Shown here one piece after another: positions 32,221 to 38,861 of a stretch of 64,000 bases of DNA; positions within the stretch are counted from its first letter, which is position 1; each line of letters starts with the position of its first letter. The stretch lies in contig JADZEX010000022.1 in NCBI GenBank assembly GCA_020850355.1, positions 62,001 through 126,000 of the forward strand, given 5' to 3'. Below the pieces are notes generated by a model. It made no database searches. It was not told the DNA's origin and was given only the letters and a program-made list of their open reading frames with translations. The position numbers and the translations under genes are program-made. Source of the stretch: Fimbriimonadaceae bacterium (GTDB lineage: Bacteria; Armatimonadota; UBA10988).

Positions 32221-33663
32221 TTGACTGCCCTCGTCCTGGCGTTCTGGCTGTCGACGCAACTCGCCGTGCCCGAGCGGCTGCAACTGACCATCGCCGGGCA
32301 GCCGGTCGAGGTCACCGCCGACCACATCATCCTGGACCCGGCCCGCGGCCGGGCCGAGTTGCTCGGGCAGGCGGTGGTGCAACTGGCCGAGACGCGGCTC
32401 AGCGCGGCGCAGATCGCGTTGGAGTACCGCGACCCGGAGCACGCCACCGCCACCGCCAGCGGGCAGGTGGTGCTGCAAGACCCCCAGCGCGGACGGCTCA
32501 CCGCGGCGCGGCTGCGGCTCGACCTGGCCAGCCGCAACGGTGAGCTGATCGACACTCAGGTGACGCTGCCGCTGGAGTGGCAACCTTCGTTCCGCGACCT
32601 GGTGCGGCCGGAAGAGGTGCCTCGCGAGGTCCGCGTCACCGCCGCCGCGGCCAGCAAGGTCGGCGACCGGCTCGACCTGCGGCAGGCCAGCATCAGCATC
32701 GGCGACATCCAGCCCCCGCAGTTCGAGCTGGCGGTCGGCTCCGCGCAGTTGCAGCTTGGGCCGCAGAACACCATCGGCGGCCTGACGCGCCTGCGCACCG
32801 GCGGCGCCAAGGTGCGGTTGTACGGCCGCACCGTGTTCAATCTGCCGGCGATCGACCTGCAGGCCAGCCAGCTCTTCATCCCCCACGTCGGCGTCAACCG
32901 CAGCGATGGGTTCTTCGTCGAACACTCCTTCGCGGTCGGTCACCTGCTGCCGTTCCGACTCTCCTTCACGCCCCGGCTAGGCACCGACAGCAACCTCACG
33001 GGGCGCGGCCGGCTGGCGCTTGGCACCAACTTCGGGTCGTTCGACCTGATCGGCTCGCAGAAAGAGCGCTACCTGCTGCTGACGCAGGCCCAGGCGGTGC
33101 AGGTCTCGCGGGTGCCCGAGTTTGGGTACACGCTGCCGAAGAACCTGAAGCTCTGGGGCGGCCAGCTCAAGGGGCGCGCCAGCTACGGGCTGTACGATGA
33201 AGAGGCCGGGCTGACGACCTGGCGGAGCAGCTTCGATCTGGGCTACGAGCGGCCGCTGCACCGCGGGCGAACCTCGGCGATCACGGCCAACGTCGGCGGA
33301 CACCTGAGCACCTATGCCACCGGCGGCAACTACCGCTGGCTGCGCGGCGGGCTGCAGGTCGAGAAGCAGTTCGGCGCCCTGTGGTACCTCGGCGGCACCA
33401 TCAACTCGCACCTCCTATCGGGCGGCACGCCCTTTCGCTTCGACCAGGTCGAGGTCGCCACGGCGCTGACCATCGAAAACCGCCTGCGCCTGAGCCGCCA
33501 TTGGCTGGTTGGCAATGACCTGCTGCTGGACCTCAACGAGGGCGTCCTGCGCAGCGAGCAGTACAGCATCTGGTACCGTGACCGCCTGCTGGAATACGGC
33601 GTCAGTTGCAGCACGCGGCCCGGCTTTGAGCTGAATCTCGACTTCCACGTGCTGGGCTTCTGA
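32221..33663 (+). CDS. lptD: LptD/OstA-like outer-membrane assembly protein
   Basis: 480 residues. After a short hydrophobic leader comes an OstA/LptA-type domain, VTADHIILDPARGRAELLGQ followed by LSAAQIALEYRD and VVLQDPQRGRLTAARL. A C-terminal beta-barrel runs from about residue 230 and ends in DFHVLGF. LptD forms the outer-membrane gate for lipopolysaccharide; here the protein is shorter than E. coli LptD (784), as in many non-proteobacterial diderms. The start is a TTG immediately after the SLH-barrel stop, so it is translationally coupled; the leader lacks the usual positive residues, leaving the exact start uncertain. Confidence 0.75.
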   Translation: MTALVLAFWLSTQLAVPERLQLTIAGQPVEVTADHIILDPARGRAELLGQAVVQLAETRLSAAQIALEYRDPEHATATASGQVVLQDPQRGRLTAARLRLDLASRNGELIDTQVTLPLEWQPSFRDLVRPEEVPREVRVTAAAASKVGDRLDLRQASISIGDIQPPQFELAVGSAQLQLGPQNTIGGLTRLRTGGAKVRLYGRTVFNLPAIDLQASQLFIPHVGVNRSDGFFVEHSFAVGHLLPFRLSFTPRLGTDSNLTGRGRLALGTNFGSFDLIGSQKERYLLLTQAQAVQVSRVPEFGYTLPKNLKLWGGQLKGRASYGLYDEEAGLTTWRSSFDLGYERPLHRGRTSAITANVGGHLSTYATGGNYRWLRGGLQVEKQFGALWYLGGTINSHLLSGGTPFRFDQVEVATALTIENRLRLSRHWLVGNDLLLDLNEGVLRSEQYSIWYRDRLLEYGVSCSTRPGFELNLDFHVLGF

Positions 33664-33693
33664 CCCGGCGCCCGCGAGCGGCCGCGCCCAGGC

Positions 33694-33719
33694 CGGCAGG
33701 GGATTCCCCCGTCCTGCCG
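33694..33719 (+). terminator. Stem-loop between lptD and the sigma factor
   Basis: Inverted repeat CGGCAGG (33694-33700) and CCTGCCG (33713-33719), 30 bases past the lptD stop. The loop contains GG-ATT-CC, which could extend pairing. No U-tract. It probably separates the outer-membrane genes from the sigma module. Confidence 0.4.
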
Positions 33720-33767
33720 AACCGACCCCCAGGTCGATTGGCCGTGGTTGCCAGGGAGCGGTGTCGA

Positions 33768-34574
33768 GTGACGGTCCGATGGGGCTGCTGGTGGGGCTGG
33801 TGGCTTGGATTCCCCTGGTTTTGGCGAGGGGCCGAACCGCTGCGCACGTCCGAGCGACCGACTCCCCAACCGGGCGACCAGGGGCCGCGTCGAGGGGCGC
33901 GCGAGGGACTCCCGGTTCCGGCGGACCCGGGCCGGCAGCCGCCCTCGGGAGTGGATCCGGACGCCGCGGCGCAGGCGCTCTTCGACCGCGAATGGCCGCG
34001 CCTGAAGGGCACGGCGGAGGCCCGGATTCGCAGCCTGACGCGCTCGGGTCAGCTCTCCGTGGAGGACCGCGAGGACCTGCTGCAGGAGGCTCGCAAGGCG
34101 CTGTATGTGTACCTCCGGCGCCTGACCGGGGTGGTTCCCTGTGATCCGGCGGTGCGGCTGCGCAAGGAACTCCAAGATTGGCTGCGTGGGACGGTCGCCA
34201 AACTGGTATGCACCCACTTCCGCCAGCAAAGCCGGCGCGGCGAGCCGCACCGGGTGGCGGCGCCAGCCGACGACCTGGCGGCCGAGGGCGAGGCGCTGGA
34301 GGCGCTGTTTGGCGATGGCGGCGCGGCGGCCCTGGCGGCCCACGACGCGGGCTGCGCGGCGCGGTTCCAGGCCGACGCCATCGCGGCGCTCGGCGAGTTG
34401 ACGGCCCTGCAGCGCGAGGCGCTGGTGTTGCGCTGGAAACAGGAGCTGACGGAGGACGGGATGGTCGCGGTCCTGCGCGTCCCTGTGGGCACGGTGAAGT
34501 CGCGGCTGCACAGCGCGCGGCAGGCGCTGGCCCGCGGGCTGCGCGAGCGCGGCTGGGAGCTCCCCGATGTCTGA
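33768..34574 (+). CDS. ECF-type RNA polymerase sigma factor
   Basis: About 268 residues. Region 2 is LSVEDREDLLQEARKALYVYLRR (about 106-128), the DREDLLQEA being the classical sigma2 core. Region 4 is ALGELTALQREALVLRW then VPVGTVKSRLHSARQALARGL, a helix-turn-helix for -35 recognition. It should direct polymerase to a few promoters under control of a partner. The first 20 codons read RWGCWWGWWLGFPWFW, a Trp-rich hydrophobic stretch odd for a sigma factor. The GTG at 33768 has AGGGAG nine bases ahead, but codon use is less regular up to about 33950, so translation may begin later. It overlaps the next gene by eight bases. Confidence 0.85.
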   Translation: MTVRWGCWWGWWLGFPWFWRGAEPLRTSERPTPQPGDQGPRRGAREGLPVPADPGRQPPSGVDPDAAAQALFDREWPRLKGTAEARIRSLTRSGQLSVEDREDLLQEARKALYVYLRRLTGVVPCDPAVRLRKELQDWLRGTVAKLVCTHFRQQSRRGEPHRVAAPADDLAAEGEALEALFGDGGAAALAAHDAGCAARFQADAIAALGELTALQREALVLRWKQELTEDGMVAVLRVPVGTVKSRLHSARQALARGLRERGWELPDV

Positions 34575-35604
34575 CCCACGCCGCCCGCCACCGCAGGTCA
34601 CCGGTCCGGAGCAGCTCCCCGCGGAGTTCGCCGGTCGGCTGCCGGCGGGTACCGCGCTGCACCAGGCCTTGTCGCAGGTGGCCGACGACCTGCGCCGGGA
34701 GCAGCGGGTGCCGCCCGACTCGTTCCTCTGTGGTCTGGCCGACGGCAGCCTGCGCCAACTGCTGCCGCCGGTCGCCGCAGAGGTCAGCCGACGCACCCGC
34801 GACAGCGCCCTGGCCCGCCTCGAAGTCAGCCGGTACTGGGCCGTGATGACCCCCTACGAGCGGCTCCGCGCCCTCTGGCGGCGGGTGCCGTTGCGGGCCA
34901 GGCTGCTGCTGGCGTTGCTCTGCTGCTGCGCCGCCGCGGTGGCCGGCGTCGACGCGGTGGAGTGCCACCGGCAGCGCACGGCCCGCCGCTGGCAGCGCTA
35001 TCCGGGCAACGCGCACTGGTACTTCCTGGGCGGCACCCACGACAGCCTGGCCGATGTCGCCCGCTACGGCCGCCGGTACGGCGCGCAGCCGGCCGTCGTG
35101 GACGACCCGGGCGAGCACCGTTGGCTGGCCAGCCAGTTCGTGCTGCCGCTGCTCCCGCGGAGCGCCAAACAGCCGCCAGCGCTGCCGGTCTTGCTGGGCT
35201 ACCGCGAACAGCGGCGCGGGCTGTGGCTGACCAGCAACGGCACGCCGCTGCGCTTCACCCGGTGGGCCCCGGGGGAGCCCTCACCGCAAGCCCGGGAGTT
35301 CAGCCGGGTGGTGGTCTGGGAGGCCGCGACCGGCTGGCGCGCCGTGCCGCCGCCGACCGGTGGCCCGGGCTCGCCGAGCCTGCTGGTGCTCTTCGAGCAC
35401 GTCGGCGACCCCTATGCCTGGACCCTGCGCGAGCTGACCGCCGCGCCGTTGCTGCTGCTGCTGGGGCTTTGGCTGCTGGTCCATGCCACGGCCGTGTTGG
35501 CGGCGCGTAGCCGCCTACGGGTGCAGCTCGACCTGCGCAGCCGCGACCTCGACGATCTGCTGCGCCCCGAACCGCGAAGCGCCAGCCTGGAGCCACGCTG
35601 GTGA
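34567..35604 (+). CDS. Membrane protein with one extracytoplasmic C-type-lectin-like domain; candidate anti-sigma factor
   Basis: 345 residues. The cytoplasmic N-terminus (about 105 residues, helical, SFLCGLADGSLRQLLPPV) has the position and size of an anti-sigma domain but no zinc motif. TM1 is LRARLLLALLCCCAAAVAG (about 109-127). The outer region (140-285) shows a C-type lectin-like pattern: WYFLGGTHDSLADVARYGRRYGA, VLLGYREQ, FTRWAPGEPS and a late GWRAVPP. The calcium-site motifs EPN and WND are changed to EPS and WRA. TM2 (about 297-317) leads to a 28-residue cytoplasmic tail. Its ATG lies inside the sigma gene end, so the two are made together. Confidence 0.6.
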   Translation: MSDPRRPPPQVTGPEQLPAEFAGRLPAGTALHQALSQVADDLRREQRVPPDSFLCGLADGSLRQLLPPVAAEVSRRTRDSALARLEVSRYWAVMTPYERLRALWRRVPLRARLLLALLCCCAAAVAGVDAVECHRQRTARRWQRYPGNAHWYFLGGTHDSLADVARYGRRYGAQPAVVDDPGEHRWLASQFVLPLLPRSAKQPPALPVLLGYREQRRGLWLTSNGTPLRFTRWAPGEPSPQAREFSRVVVWEAATGWRAVPPPTGGPGSPSLLVLFEHVGDPYAWTLRELTAAPLLLLLGLWLLVHATAVLAARSRLRVQLDLRSRDLDDLLRPEPRSASLEPRW

Positions 35605-36986
35605 GCGCCCTGCCGACCTGGCGCGAGCGCTGGCCGACCGCGCGGGCCCGGGTCGCCGGTGGGACGGTGCTGCGGGTCGCCTTGCTGCTGGCGGTCGGCG
35701 CCACCGCCCGGCTCACCGCAGCCCGCTACGACGAGCTCCGCACCGCGCCCTGGGTGCTGCATCCTGAGAGCGGCCATGCCTACGCGCTGGTCGGCCCACA
35801 CCTCTCGTGGGACGACGCCCAGGGCATCGCGCAGCACTGGGGCGGCACCCTGGCTTGCCTCGAAACCGCCAGCGAAAACGCCTGGGTACGTGCCAATCTG
35901 CTGCAGCTCCCCTGCGACGCGGTCTGGCTGGGCGCTCGCGAGGCGGGCCGCGAGGGCGCCTGGCAGTGGACCAATGGCGCGCCCTGGGGGTACACCCACT
36001 GGGGCGAGGGCGAGCCCAACAACCGCGACCGCACCGACAACCGGCTGCTGCTACACCGCGACGGTCTCTGGAACGACGCCGACCCGGACGACTGGCTGCC
36101 GCGCGGGGAGCTGCCGCGCTACTACGGGCTGGTCGAACGAGACCGGGCCGCAGCCAGCCTGCACGAGCCGCTGCTCTGGCAACTGCTGGCCTGGCGCGGG
36201 CTGACACTGCTGCTGGCAGCCAGCCTGTTGGGCCGGGCGGCGGCCGCGCTGGGAGTCGGTCAGCGGCAGGTCTGGTTCGGCGCGCCGCCGCCCTGGAGCG
36301 CCGGCTGGGCCGCGCCCTGGCTGCGACTATCGCCGCGCGGCTGGCTGCTGCTGGGCGCCCTGGCCGCCGGCCTGCTGCTGGGGCGCGGCCACTACCTGGC
36401 GAGCCACCCGCGCGATCACGCGCCGTGGGTCCGGTCACCGGTCAGCGGACAGTGGTACGCCCTGCTTCCGGCGCACTGGAGCTGGTCCGAGGTGCGGGCC
36501 CGCGCCCTGGCGCTGGGCGCCGACCTGGCGGTCGTGCCGAGCGCCGCCGAGAGCGAGTGGATTGCCGAGGCCCTGTGCAGCGCGCCGGGGCCCTGCGTCT
36601 ATCTGGGCCTGCGCGAGGTCATCGGCAACGGGCGCTGGGAGTGGGTCGACGGCAGCCCGCTGACCTTCGTCTACCGCCGGCCCGGCCTGCCGCTGGACCT
36701 CGCTGCCGACCCGGCGCCAAACAACGTGATGTTCATCTGGGGCTACCACGACCAGCGCCGCTTCGACCCGCGCGACCAGTTCGGCGAGCGGCACGGCTGC
36801 TGGGAGACCATCACCGACCCGCTGGTCGACGACCTGCCCGACGAACTGCGCCCGGCCTACGGCCTGCTGCAGCGCCACACCTCACCCTACCGGCCGACCC
36901 CGCTCCGGCTGGCCGGCGCGGCGGCGCTGCTGCTGCTGAGCGGCCTGCTGGCGCTGCTGCGGAGCCGCTGGCGGGACGACCCGTAA
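35601..36986 (+). CDS. Membrane protein with two C-type-lectin-like domains
   Basis: 461 residues, GTG start overlapping the previous stop by four bases. Helices are near residues 22-40, 197-217, 247-262 and 436-453. Between TM1 and TM2 lies a complete C-type lectin domain (about 57-178): SGHAYALVGPHLSWDDAQ, GGTLACLETASENAWV, VWLGAREAGREGAWQWTNG, then EPN (138-140) and WND (157-159), the two motifs that hold calcium and sugar in mannose-type lectins. A second domain (about 282-423) repeats the fold (WSWSEVRARALALGADLAVV, YLGLREVIGNGRWEWVDG) but lacks EPN and WND. I infer a glycan sensor or ligand-presenting partner of the preceding two proteins. Confidence 0.7.
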   Translation: MSALPTWRERWPTARARVAGGTVLRVALLLAVGATARLTAARYDELRTAPWVLHPESGHAYALVGPHLSWDDAQGIAQHWGGTLACLETASENAWVRANLLQLPCDAVWLGAREAGREGAWQWTNGAPWGYTHWGEGEPNNRDRTDNRLLLHRDGLWNDADPDDWLPRGELPRYYGLVERDRAAASLHEPLLWQLLAWRGLTLLLAASLLGRAAAALGVGQRQVWFGAPPPWSAGWAAPWLRLSPRGWLLLGALAAGLLLGRGHYLASHPRDHAPWVRSPVSGQWYALLPAHWSWSEVRARALALGADLAVVPSAAESEWIAEALCSAPGPCVYLGLREVIGNGRWEWVDGSPLTFVYRRPGLPLDLAADPAPNNVMFIWGYHDQRRFDPRDQFGERHGCWETITDPLVDDLPDELRPAYGLLQRHTSPYRPTPLRLAGAAALLLLSGLLALLRSRWRDDP

Positions 36987-37205: not shown

Positions 37206-38861
37206 TCAGGCGCCGGGGCGTTGGTTCAGCCAGGGGGCGGGCTGGGGCGGTACGCCGTACCGCTGGGACGGCGGCAGGGCAGCCACGGGGGCGGTCCAGG
37301 CCGGAAGATCCAGCCGGACCAGGCAGCCGCCCTCGGGCGGCGACTCGATCTGCCACCAGCCGCCGTGGCGGGTCACCACCCCGTCCACCAGCGCCAGGCC
37401 AAGCCCGACCGCTTGCGGGCCGCGGGTGGTGTAGAACAACTGACCGGCGTGGTGGGTGGTCTCTGGATCCAGCCCCGGGCCGTGGTCGCGGACGGTCAGC
37501 ACGACCCGCGGCCCGCGGTGCTCGGCGCGCACCTGCACCGGCGTGTGCGGCGCCGCCGCCAGGGCGTTCTCCAGCAGCGCCACCAGCACTTCGGTCAGGT
37601 CGCCCTCCAGCCCGCTGACGCAGACCCCGGCCAGGCCCTCGCAGCTCACCGCCGGGCTGCCCGCGGCGAGGCCCAGCCGCGCCATCGCGCGGGTCGCCAC
37701 CTGGGCCAGATCGACCGCCTCGCGCCGCACCAGGCCGTCGCGGAAGCAGGCCTTCTGGAACCGGCGGATCAGGTTCGAGGCCTGCCAACTGCGCTCGATC
37801 ACGTCGTCGAGGTGCTGCCGGTCGGGCTGCTGCTGGACCTGCTCACGCAGGAACTCGAGGTTGCCGATGACCACCGCCAGGGCGTTGTTGAGGTGGTGGT
37901 TGAGGTGCTCGGCAACGGGGCGCAGCGCCTGTTCGACGGTCAGGTCCGGGGTGGTGGCGGAGCGGCGCGCGCCACGCTGCCGGGCGGCCACCGTCGGCGG
38001 CCAGTGGACGCGTTGCTGCTGCGCCCGCAGCTCGTGCCCGCCGAGCAGCGCCAGCGCCAGCAACAGGCCGAGGCCGGCCAGCAACATGCCGCGCTCACCC
38101 CAGACCAGCAGCGGGTCGCGGGGCAGGCTCAACGCCAGGATCCCGGCGGGCTCGCCGGAGGCCGTCCGAAACTGCTGGAAGACCACATCCTGCGACGGGT
38201 CGCTGGCGATCAGGCGGCCGTTGAGCAACTCGTCGGCGCGCGCCGCGACGGCCGGCAGGTGGGCAGTGCCGGCCTGCATCACGCGGTCCAGCTCGGGATG
38301 ACTCAACACGAACGCGTCGGGAACCAGGGCCACCGTGCCGCCGGTGATCTCCTCGATCCGCGCCACGAGGTGGCGGTTGAGGGTGCGCCCGGTGAGCAGC
38401 ACCCCGGCCGGGCGGCCCGGCCCGCGGGGCAACTGCTCGGCGACCAGCAGATCGAAGCCGAGCCCACGCGGCACCAGCCCGCGGGCCGACCCGGCGGCGA
38501 CCGCGGTGGCCAGCAGTTGCTGCGCCGCCGGGCTCGGCAGCAGCTCGCGGCCCGCGCCGGCCAGCCGTTGACCCGGCGGTGAGCTGATGGTGACCCACTC
38601 GGCGCCGGCCAGGCGCAGGTCGGCCAGCAGCGCGGCGGCGGCCCCGGGGGCGGTCACGGGATGTTGCCGCAGAGCGTGGCGCGCTTCCCGCTGCAACTCG
38701 TCGAGGTGGCGCGAAAGCACCTCGTTGGCGACGGTCACCTGGCGCTGCAGGCGGCGCGCGACCAGCATGTCGCGCTGGGCGTCGTAACGCTGCCAGGCCC
38801 GGGCCAGCAGCCCGACCGTCAGCAGCATTCCCAGCCAGCCGGCAACTCGTCGCGCGCGCAT
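37206..38861 (-). CDS. Membrane sensor histidine kinase
   Basis: 551 residues. TM1 is about 8-22 and TM2 about 258-277, enclosing a periplasmic sensor of some 235 residues that resembles CHASE4-type domains (ARIEEITGGTVALVPDA, VFQQFRTASGEPAGILAL). The H-box is VAEHLNHHLNNALAVVIGN with the acceptor His at about 322/323, followed by a HATPase with VALLENALAAAP (N-box), DHGPGLD and GLGLALVDG. No receiver domain and no response regulator gene are adjacent. It faces the sigma/lectin operon and ends at its own intrinsic terminator. It could sense the same envelope signal, but nothing in sequence proves that. Confidence 0.88.
   Translation of the reverse strand: MRARRVAGWLGMLLTVGLLARAWQRYDAQRDMLVARRLQRQVTVANEVLSRHLDELQREARHALRQHPVTAPGAAAALLADLRLAGAEWVTISSPPGQRLAGAGRELLPSPAAQQLLATAVAAGSARGLVPRGLGFDLLVAEQLPRGPGRPAGVLLTGRTLNRHLVARIEEITGGTVALVPDAFVLSHPELDRVMQAGTAHLPAVAARADELLNGRLIASDPSQDVVFQQFRTASGEPAGILALSLPRDPLLVWGERGMLLAGLGLLLALALLGGHELRAQQQRVHWPPTVAARQRGARRSATTPDLTVEQALRPVAEHLNHHLNNALAVVIGNLEFLREQVQQQPDRQHLDDVIERSWQASNLIRRFQKACFRDGLVRREAVDLAQVATRAMARLGLAAGSPAVSCEGLAGVCVSGLEGDLTEVLVALLENALAAAPHTPVQVRAEHRGPRVVLTVRDHGPGLDPETTHHAGQLFYTTRGPQAVGLGLALVDGVVTRHGGWWQIESPPEGGCLVRLDLPAWTAPVAALPPSQRYGVPPQPAPWLNQRPGA

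Follow-up and report, generated by a model that had tools for sequence, protein, structure and literature searches.

We found three overlapping genes on the plus strand that couple a divergent, predicted ECF sigma factor to two membrane proteins of 345 and 461 aa with C-type lectin-like domains (CTLDs). We consider it likely that they form a trans-envelope signalling operon, in which the 345-aa protein would restrain the sigma factor, the CTLD assembly would sense and the sigma factor would then be released. What the sequences show is the domain content and the fold, the linkage of the genes, a paralogue of the 345-aa protein and the recurrence of sigma-CTLD coupling in Poribacteria; topology, inhibition, ligand, proteolysis and regulon are inferred. 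The window, i.e. the whole stretch of 64,000 nt that we analysed, is part of contig 23 of a 6.67-Mb draft genome and contains the following features:

33694-33719, no strand assigned: G+C-rich hairpin in the interval between the upstream gene (ending at 33663) and the sigma gene
33951-34574, plus strand: ECF-type sigma factor of 207 aa (Pfam, TIGR02937, own-genome HMM, codon-position G+C)
34567-35604, plus strand: 345-aa membrane protein with a putative anti-sigma N-terminus, a transmembrane segment (TM), a degenerate CTLD, a second TM and a short tail
34567-34884, plus strand: helical N-terminus of the 345-aa protein (residues 1-106), putatively a class I anti-sigma-like domain that lacks zinc ligands
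34990-35412, plus strand: CTLD of the 345-aa protein (PDB fold search, alignment)
35601-36986, plus strand: 461-aa membrane protein with four TM and two CTLDs, without a sizeable cytoplasmic domain (Pfam Lectin_C, PDB)
35742-36140, plus strand: CTLD1 of the 461-aa protein (alignment to an Endo180/uPARAP CTLD, 5e4k, and to mannose receptors, 5.7e-17)
36414-36881, plus strand: CTLD2 of the 461-aa protein (weak Lectin_C match, 0.0017 alone; alignment with other CTLDs)

The gene order is sigma factor, 345-aa protein, 461-aa protein, and the overlaps of 8 and 4 bases that an earlier note had read from the sequence are exact: the sigma gene stops with TGA at 34572-34574 and the 345-aa gene starts with ATG at 34567; the latter stops at 35602-35604 and the 461-aa gene starts with GTG at 35601. 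A GGAG-type ribosome site precedes the start of each membrane protein gene, and the codon-position G+C gives a strong coding signal in all three genes. The same measure shifts the start of the sigma gene, which had been placed at 33768. The coding frame is absent from about 33700 to about 33950 and clear afterwards, so that the gene most likely starts with the GTG at 33951, giving 207 aa. We rejected 33768, which lies upstream of the coding signal, as does the start of the longest open reading frame (33738). The hairpin between the upstream gene and the sigma gene (-18.5 kcal/mol upon folding of 33681-33730) has no T-run and is a possible boundary of the transcription unit. An alternative frame 5' of the sigma gene (33761-34144, plus strand), with a hydrophobic stretch at its start (MGLLVGLVAWIPLVLA), is probably not a gene, since codon usage gives it no support. 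A membrane histidine kinase (37206-38861, minus strand; HATPase_c 2.9e-17) is encoded convergently with the operon, and no response regulator was found among the few adjacent genes scanned.

Judged by its sequence, the 207-aa protein is a divergent ECF sigma factor, and this identity, as distinct from the start, holds as first proposed. It matches Sigma70_r4_2 of Pfam (5.9e-7) and, below that model's cut-off, TIGR02937 (sigma70-ECF, 9e-9, residues 68-256 of the longer frame). Against an HMM built from 15 further sigma proteins that this genome encodes, with the window's own sigma excluded, it scores 65.6 bits, the best of 1000 shuffles reaching 9.6. Region 2 went undetected by Pfam; the region-2 half alone scores 22.5 with the own-genome HMM, compared with 10.9 for the best shuffle. 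As expected for an ECF factor, the protein consists of regions 2 and 4 only, without region 3. Among 291 Armatimonadota genomes we found no ortholog, only general ECF similarity.

The lectin fold claimed for both membrane proteins was confirmed, by Pfam and PDB matches for the 461-aa protein and by the predicted fold for the 345-aa protein. The 461-aa protein carries two stretches of Lectin_C (6.3e-13), each CTLD lying between two TM segments, and C-type lectins appear throughout its list of PDB matches; its AlphaFold model (two sequences, pLDDT 50) was left out of the evidence. CTLD1 reaches 4.3e-27 against the PDB and aligns with CTLDs of Endo180, the mannose receptor and DEC-205. It holds an EPN motif (36012-36020, residues 138-140), an acidic residue eight positions past the E of EPN (D146) and a WND motif (36069-36077, residues 157-159), all of which agree with the calcium/sugar site known from CTLDs that bind sugars, e.g. 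Endo180 CTLD2. The roles of the EPN and WND residues are well established for animal C-type lectins. In alignment, CTLD2 has lost these motifs, and the full EPN...WND motif is present in only one of the three CTLDs of the operon. Because CTLD1 keeps it, a glycan appears plausible as the signal for this domain only. The earlier proposal of a glycan signal finds weak support in CTLD1; the CTLD of the 345-aa protein, attached to the putative anti-sigma domain, has lost the motifs.

For the 345-aa protein itself, Pfam gave no match, even at E 10. A paralogue, P0004, with a Lectin_C match of 2e-10 aligns with it over the whole length. An AlphaFold model from an alignment of three sequences of the window (mean pLDDT 67) places helices, TM, CTLD and TM in this order, and the top 50 structures found with the model in the PDB were all CTLDs (best E 3.4e-4; TM-score on target <=0.71). 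In place of the calcium/sugar motifs the alignment shows EPS and then GWR, i.e. no WND. An arginine-rich stretch precedes the first TM in both the 345-aa and the 461-aa protein, and for this reason an N-in topology is suggested for both. Neither protein has a FecR domain by Pfam or NCBIfam, and an RsgI-type N-terminus gave no Pfam or NCBIfam match.

Does the 345-aa protein begin with an anti-sigma domain? The helices that the earlier note had described there are indeed predicted before TM1 (residues 30-44, 50-58, 63-77 and 80-106; pLDDT ~64-80, from the three-sequence alignment only), but a score as an anti-sigma sequence is insignificant: 0.5 bits with an HMM of the anti-sigma-like domains of the same genome, with 382 of 1000 shuffles as good. 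An alignment to the N-terminus of P0004 alone is likewise insignificant (73 of 1000 shuffles as good). P0004 (contig 59, L027:8024-8932) is the only carrier of Lectin_C found in this genome outside the gene cluster, and over their full lengths it shares 32% identity with the 345-aa protein. A zinc anti-sigma-like motif is followed in it by the same TM-CTLD-TM body. The motif, CPPEP...RHARGCAAC, reads C...Hx3Cx2C with C22, H50, C54 and C57 as ligands; zf-HC2 matches with E 0.1, below the curated cut-off, and the own-genome anti-sigma-like HMM scores 8.8 bits, equalled by 2 of 1000 shuffles. In the 345-aa protein the aligned H, C and C are replaced by R, S and A, and the first C is missing. No sigma gene lies within the 17 kb surrounding P0004, which we note as an orphan putative anti-sigma factor.

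Like the gene of a class I anti-sigma factor, the 345-aa gene adjoins the ECF gene on the same strand, with the 8-base overlap. In this genome, the gene behind about ten of the sigma genes encodes a protein with a TM and an anti-sigma-like N-terminus, which mostly lacks zinc ligands. Two of these partners share the TM-ectodomain-TM layout, one with a VWA domain (zf-HC2 1.3e-3) and one with a bMG3-like match; another sigma neighbour is RseB-like. In sequence, the 345-aa protein fits this scheme of an anti-sigma-like N-terminus, a TM and a varied ectodomain. Based on the operon position, the motif of P0004 and the similar sigma partners in the genome, its N-terminus is likely an anti-sigma domain. 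Zinc ligands are often absent from class I anti-sigma domains, in ~44% of the class (PMC7406223). At L071:331-2250 (minus strand), a sigma gene is followed by a gene for a zf-HC2-like domain-TM-VWA-TM protein with the layout of the 345-aa protein, and its VWA ectodomain is a putative ECF sensor.

Is the coupling of a sigma factor to CTLDs found in other genomes? A neighbourhood search for sigma genes followed by lectin-domain membrane proteins, which the earlier note had recommended, returned none in other Armatimonadota and conserved fusions in Poribacteria. An orthologous triplet was not found in the other 290 Armatimonadota species, the host's GTDB class being represented by five genomes in the comparison set, and a contig search with four CTLD proteins as queries found no relative. 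CTLD genes do occur in 55 of 291 Armatimonadota genomes, where they encode secreted, PEP-CTERM-type or large proteins; a sigma gene directly adjoined a CTLD gene in none of 59 neighbourhoods, and in one of them a sigma gene lies ~3.6 kb away. We rejected these genes as support, as they are of other types and adjoin no sigma gene directly in these neighbourhoods. In Planctomycetota (L273-L276), four apparently secreted CTLD genes directly adjoin sigma genes on the same strand, an adjacency that is weak evidence on its own because the density of sigma genes is high there.

In Poribacteria, an intact ECF sigma-TM-CTLD chain is encoded in at least 16 of 85 genomes:

L272, 4008-6089 and 6098-7546: ECF sigma-TM-CTLD fusion and further CTLD gene; the same arrangement in L278-L290, L292 and L305

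This count excludes L291 and L295, in which the frame is interrupted, and the full-length matches G730 and G737. The chain consists of ECF regions 2 and 4, a TM at about residue 230-255, a CarboxypepD_reg-type middle part and a C-terminal CTLD, and Pfam confirmed the domains on five of the fusions. The further CTLD gene lies directly 3' of each fusion; in many loci the two genes abut or overlap, and its product mostly has a TM. The fusions are 83% down to 37% identical, which indicates long conservation. Their EPN position varies (EPN, EPD, EPH, EPG, QPD), their WND position is mostly WED, WKD or WEV and rarely WND, and the CTLD encoded 3' of them has neither an EPN-type nor a WND motif. On sequence grounds, the fusions provide strong evidence, and the best we have, for an independent and conserved coupling of sigma factors to CTLDs. 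Separately, Poribacterial genomes (e.g. G738, G762, G773) each hold many paralogues of a sigma-TM protein with a frame of ~1000 aa with the first 240 residues shared, apparently a large family of membrane-tethered ECF sigma factors.

The gene order, the predicted helical cytoplasmic N-terminus, the TM and the extracytoplasmic part of the 345-aa protein resemble those of class I anti-sigma factors (RseA, RskA, RsiW, ChrR; with Hx3Cx2C or zinc-less), whereas its N-terminal domain is unrecognisable by sequence and its lectin-fold ectodomain sits between two TMs. The main text of a survey of class I anti-sigma factors does not contain the word lectin (PMC7406223). In ECF52 (SCO4117, Streptomyces coelicolor), sigma factor, zinc finger, TM and carbohydrate-binding domain are fused in one chain, which is thought to work through proteolysis (PMC8999054). 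Here as there, an ECF sigma is coupled to a membrane protein whose ectodomain is of a carbohydrate-binding type, but ECF52 is a fusion, belongs to Actinobacteria and is not described as a C-type lectin, while the present operon has three proteins and C-type lectin folds. In the SigI/RsgI biomass sensors of Clostridium thermocellum, an outside substrate frees the inside sigma factor (PMC12203970). RsgI resembles the operon as proposed in its anti-sigma domain, TM and carbohydrate-binding ectodomain; SigI, however, is not an ECF factor, RsgI has CBMs instead of CTLDs, and neither the RsgI-type N-terminus nor its self-cleaving periplasmic domain was found in this operon. As ECF52 and RsgI both use carbohydrate-binding ectodomains, the logic of a polysaccharide outside and a sigma factor inside is already known. 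The Poribacterial fusions share with the operon an ECF sigma tied to an outside CTLD and a second CTLD gene directly 3', and differ in that the sigma factor is itself membrane-anchored, a separate anti-sigma protein is absent, extra CarboxypepD_reg-type matches are present and the proteins are not orthologous. In the part of the literature covered, we found no relevant publication on C-type lectins with anti-sigma or ECF factors, nor on Poribacteria with sigma factors, including the sigma-TM-CTLD fusions. The view that a lectin-type sensor is unfamiliar for ECF factors is therefore fair for C-type lectins and too broad for carbohydrate-binding ectodomains, for which ECF52 and RsgI are published. 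New here would be the C-type lectin-like fold as an ECF sensor.

In the reading that we consider most likely, the degenerate, zinc-less class I anti-sigma-like N-terminus of the 345-aa protein would hold the sigma factor at the inner membrane in an inactive state. The 461-aa protein has two CTLDs but lacks an output domain, and would be an accessory partner there for ligand binding. A ligand bound outside by the CTLD assembly, possibly a sugar or glycoconjugate at the calcium-type site of CTLD1 of the 461-aa protein, would then shift the conformation of the 345-aa protein or open it to site-1/site-2 proteolysis, and the freed sigma factor would transcribe its targets, a presumed regulon. An M50/RseP homologue is present in the host genome, a weak support because this family is near-universal.

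The mechanism could be the same and the CTLDs could respond to a protein, to some envelope component or to one another instead of to sugars, a possibility that we put not far short of even. Many CTLDs outside the classical lectins sense ligands other than sugars. The calcium-sugar residues are lost in two of the three CTLDs here, including that of the 345-aa protein, which lies behind the putative anti-sigma domain, and the variable EPN position and mostly replaced WND of the Poribacterial fusions, as well as the adjoining CTLD without both motifs, point in the same direction. CTLD1 of the 461-aa protein speaks for sugars instead, as it retains EPN, the acidic residue and WND in alignment with sugar-binding CTLDs. 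We find it unlikely that the two membrane proteins, instead of regulating the sigma factor, are its targets, e.g. adhesins that it expresses, or mere co-passengers. An adhesin gives no obvious role to the 106-residue cytoplasmic helical domain, P0004 bears an apparent zinc anti-sigma motif in the corresponding N-terminus, the overlapping order of sigma factor and membrane protein is the usual sigma/anti-sigma layout and frequent in this genome, and in Poribacteria sigma factor and CTLD lie within one chain. Such an explanation would nevertheless account for an N-terminus that is unrecognisable by sequence as an anti-sigma domain, and the four secreted Planctomycetota CTLD genes adjoin sigma genes without any anti-sigma domain, so that such adjacency can have other causes. 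A chance arrangement of the genes, or a sigma gene that has degenerated and lost its function, would fit the region 2 missed by Pfam and the phylum search that gave no sigma ortholog. This we judge highly improbable given the strong codon-position G+C signal of the three genes, the overlaps with ribosome sites and a region-2 half that outscores every shuffle.

Returning to the proposed signalling operon, its underlying logic has precedents in ECF52 and RsgI. We suggest, tentatively, that CTLDs may be a recurrent and so far undescribed class of ECF sensor that arose at least twice, in the Armatimonadota operon and in the Poribacterial fusions, with some of its members gating by calcium-dependent glycan binding. 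CTLDs are best known as animal receptors, and many Poribacteria are associated with sponges. If the reading is true, a CTLD-read transcription switch in two phyla, differing in architecture, would give ECF signalling an additional class of sensor, and Poribacteria would gain a candidate regulator for sensing glycans or surfaces. Within one genome, the same anti-sigma-like module is paired with VWA, RseB-like and lectin ectodomains.
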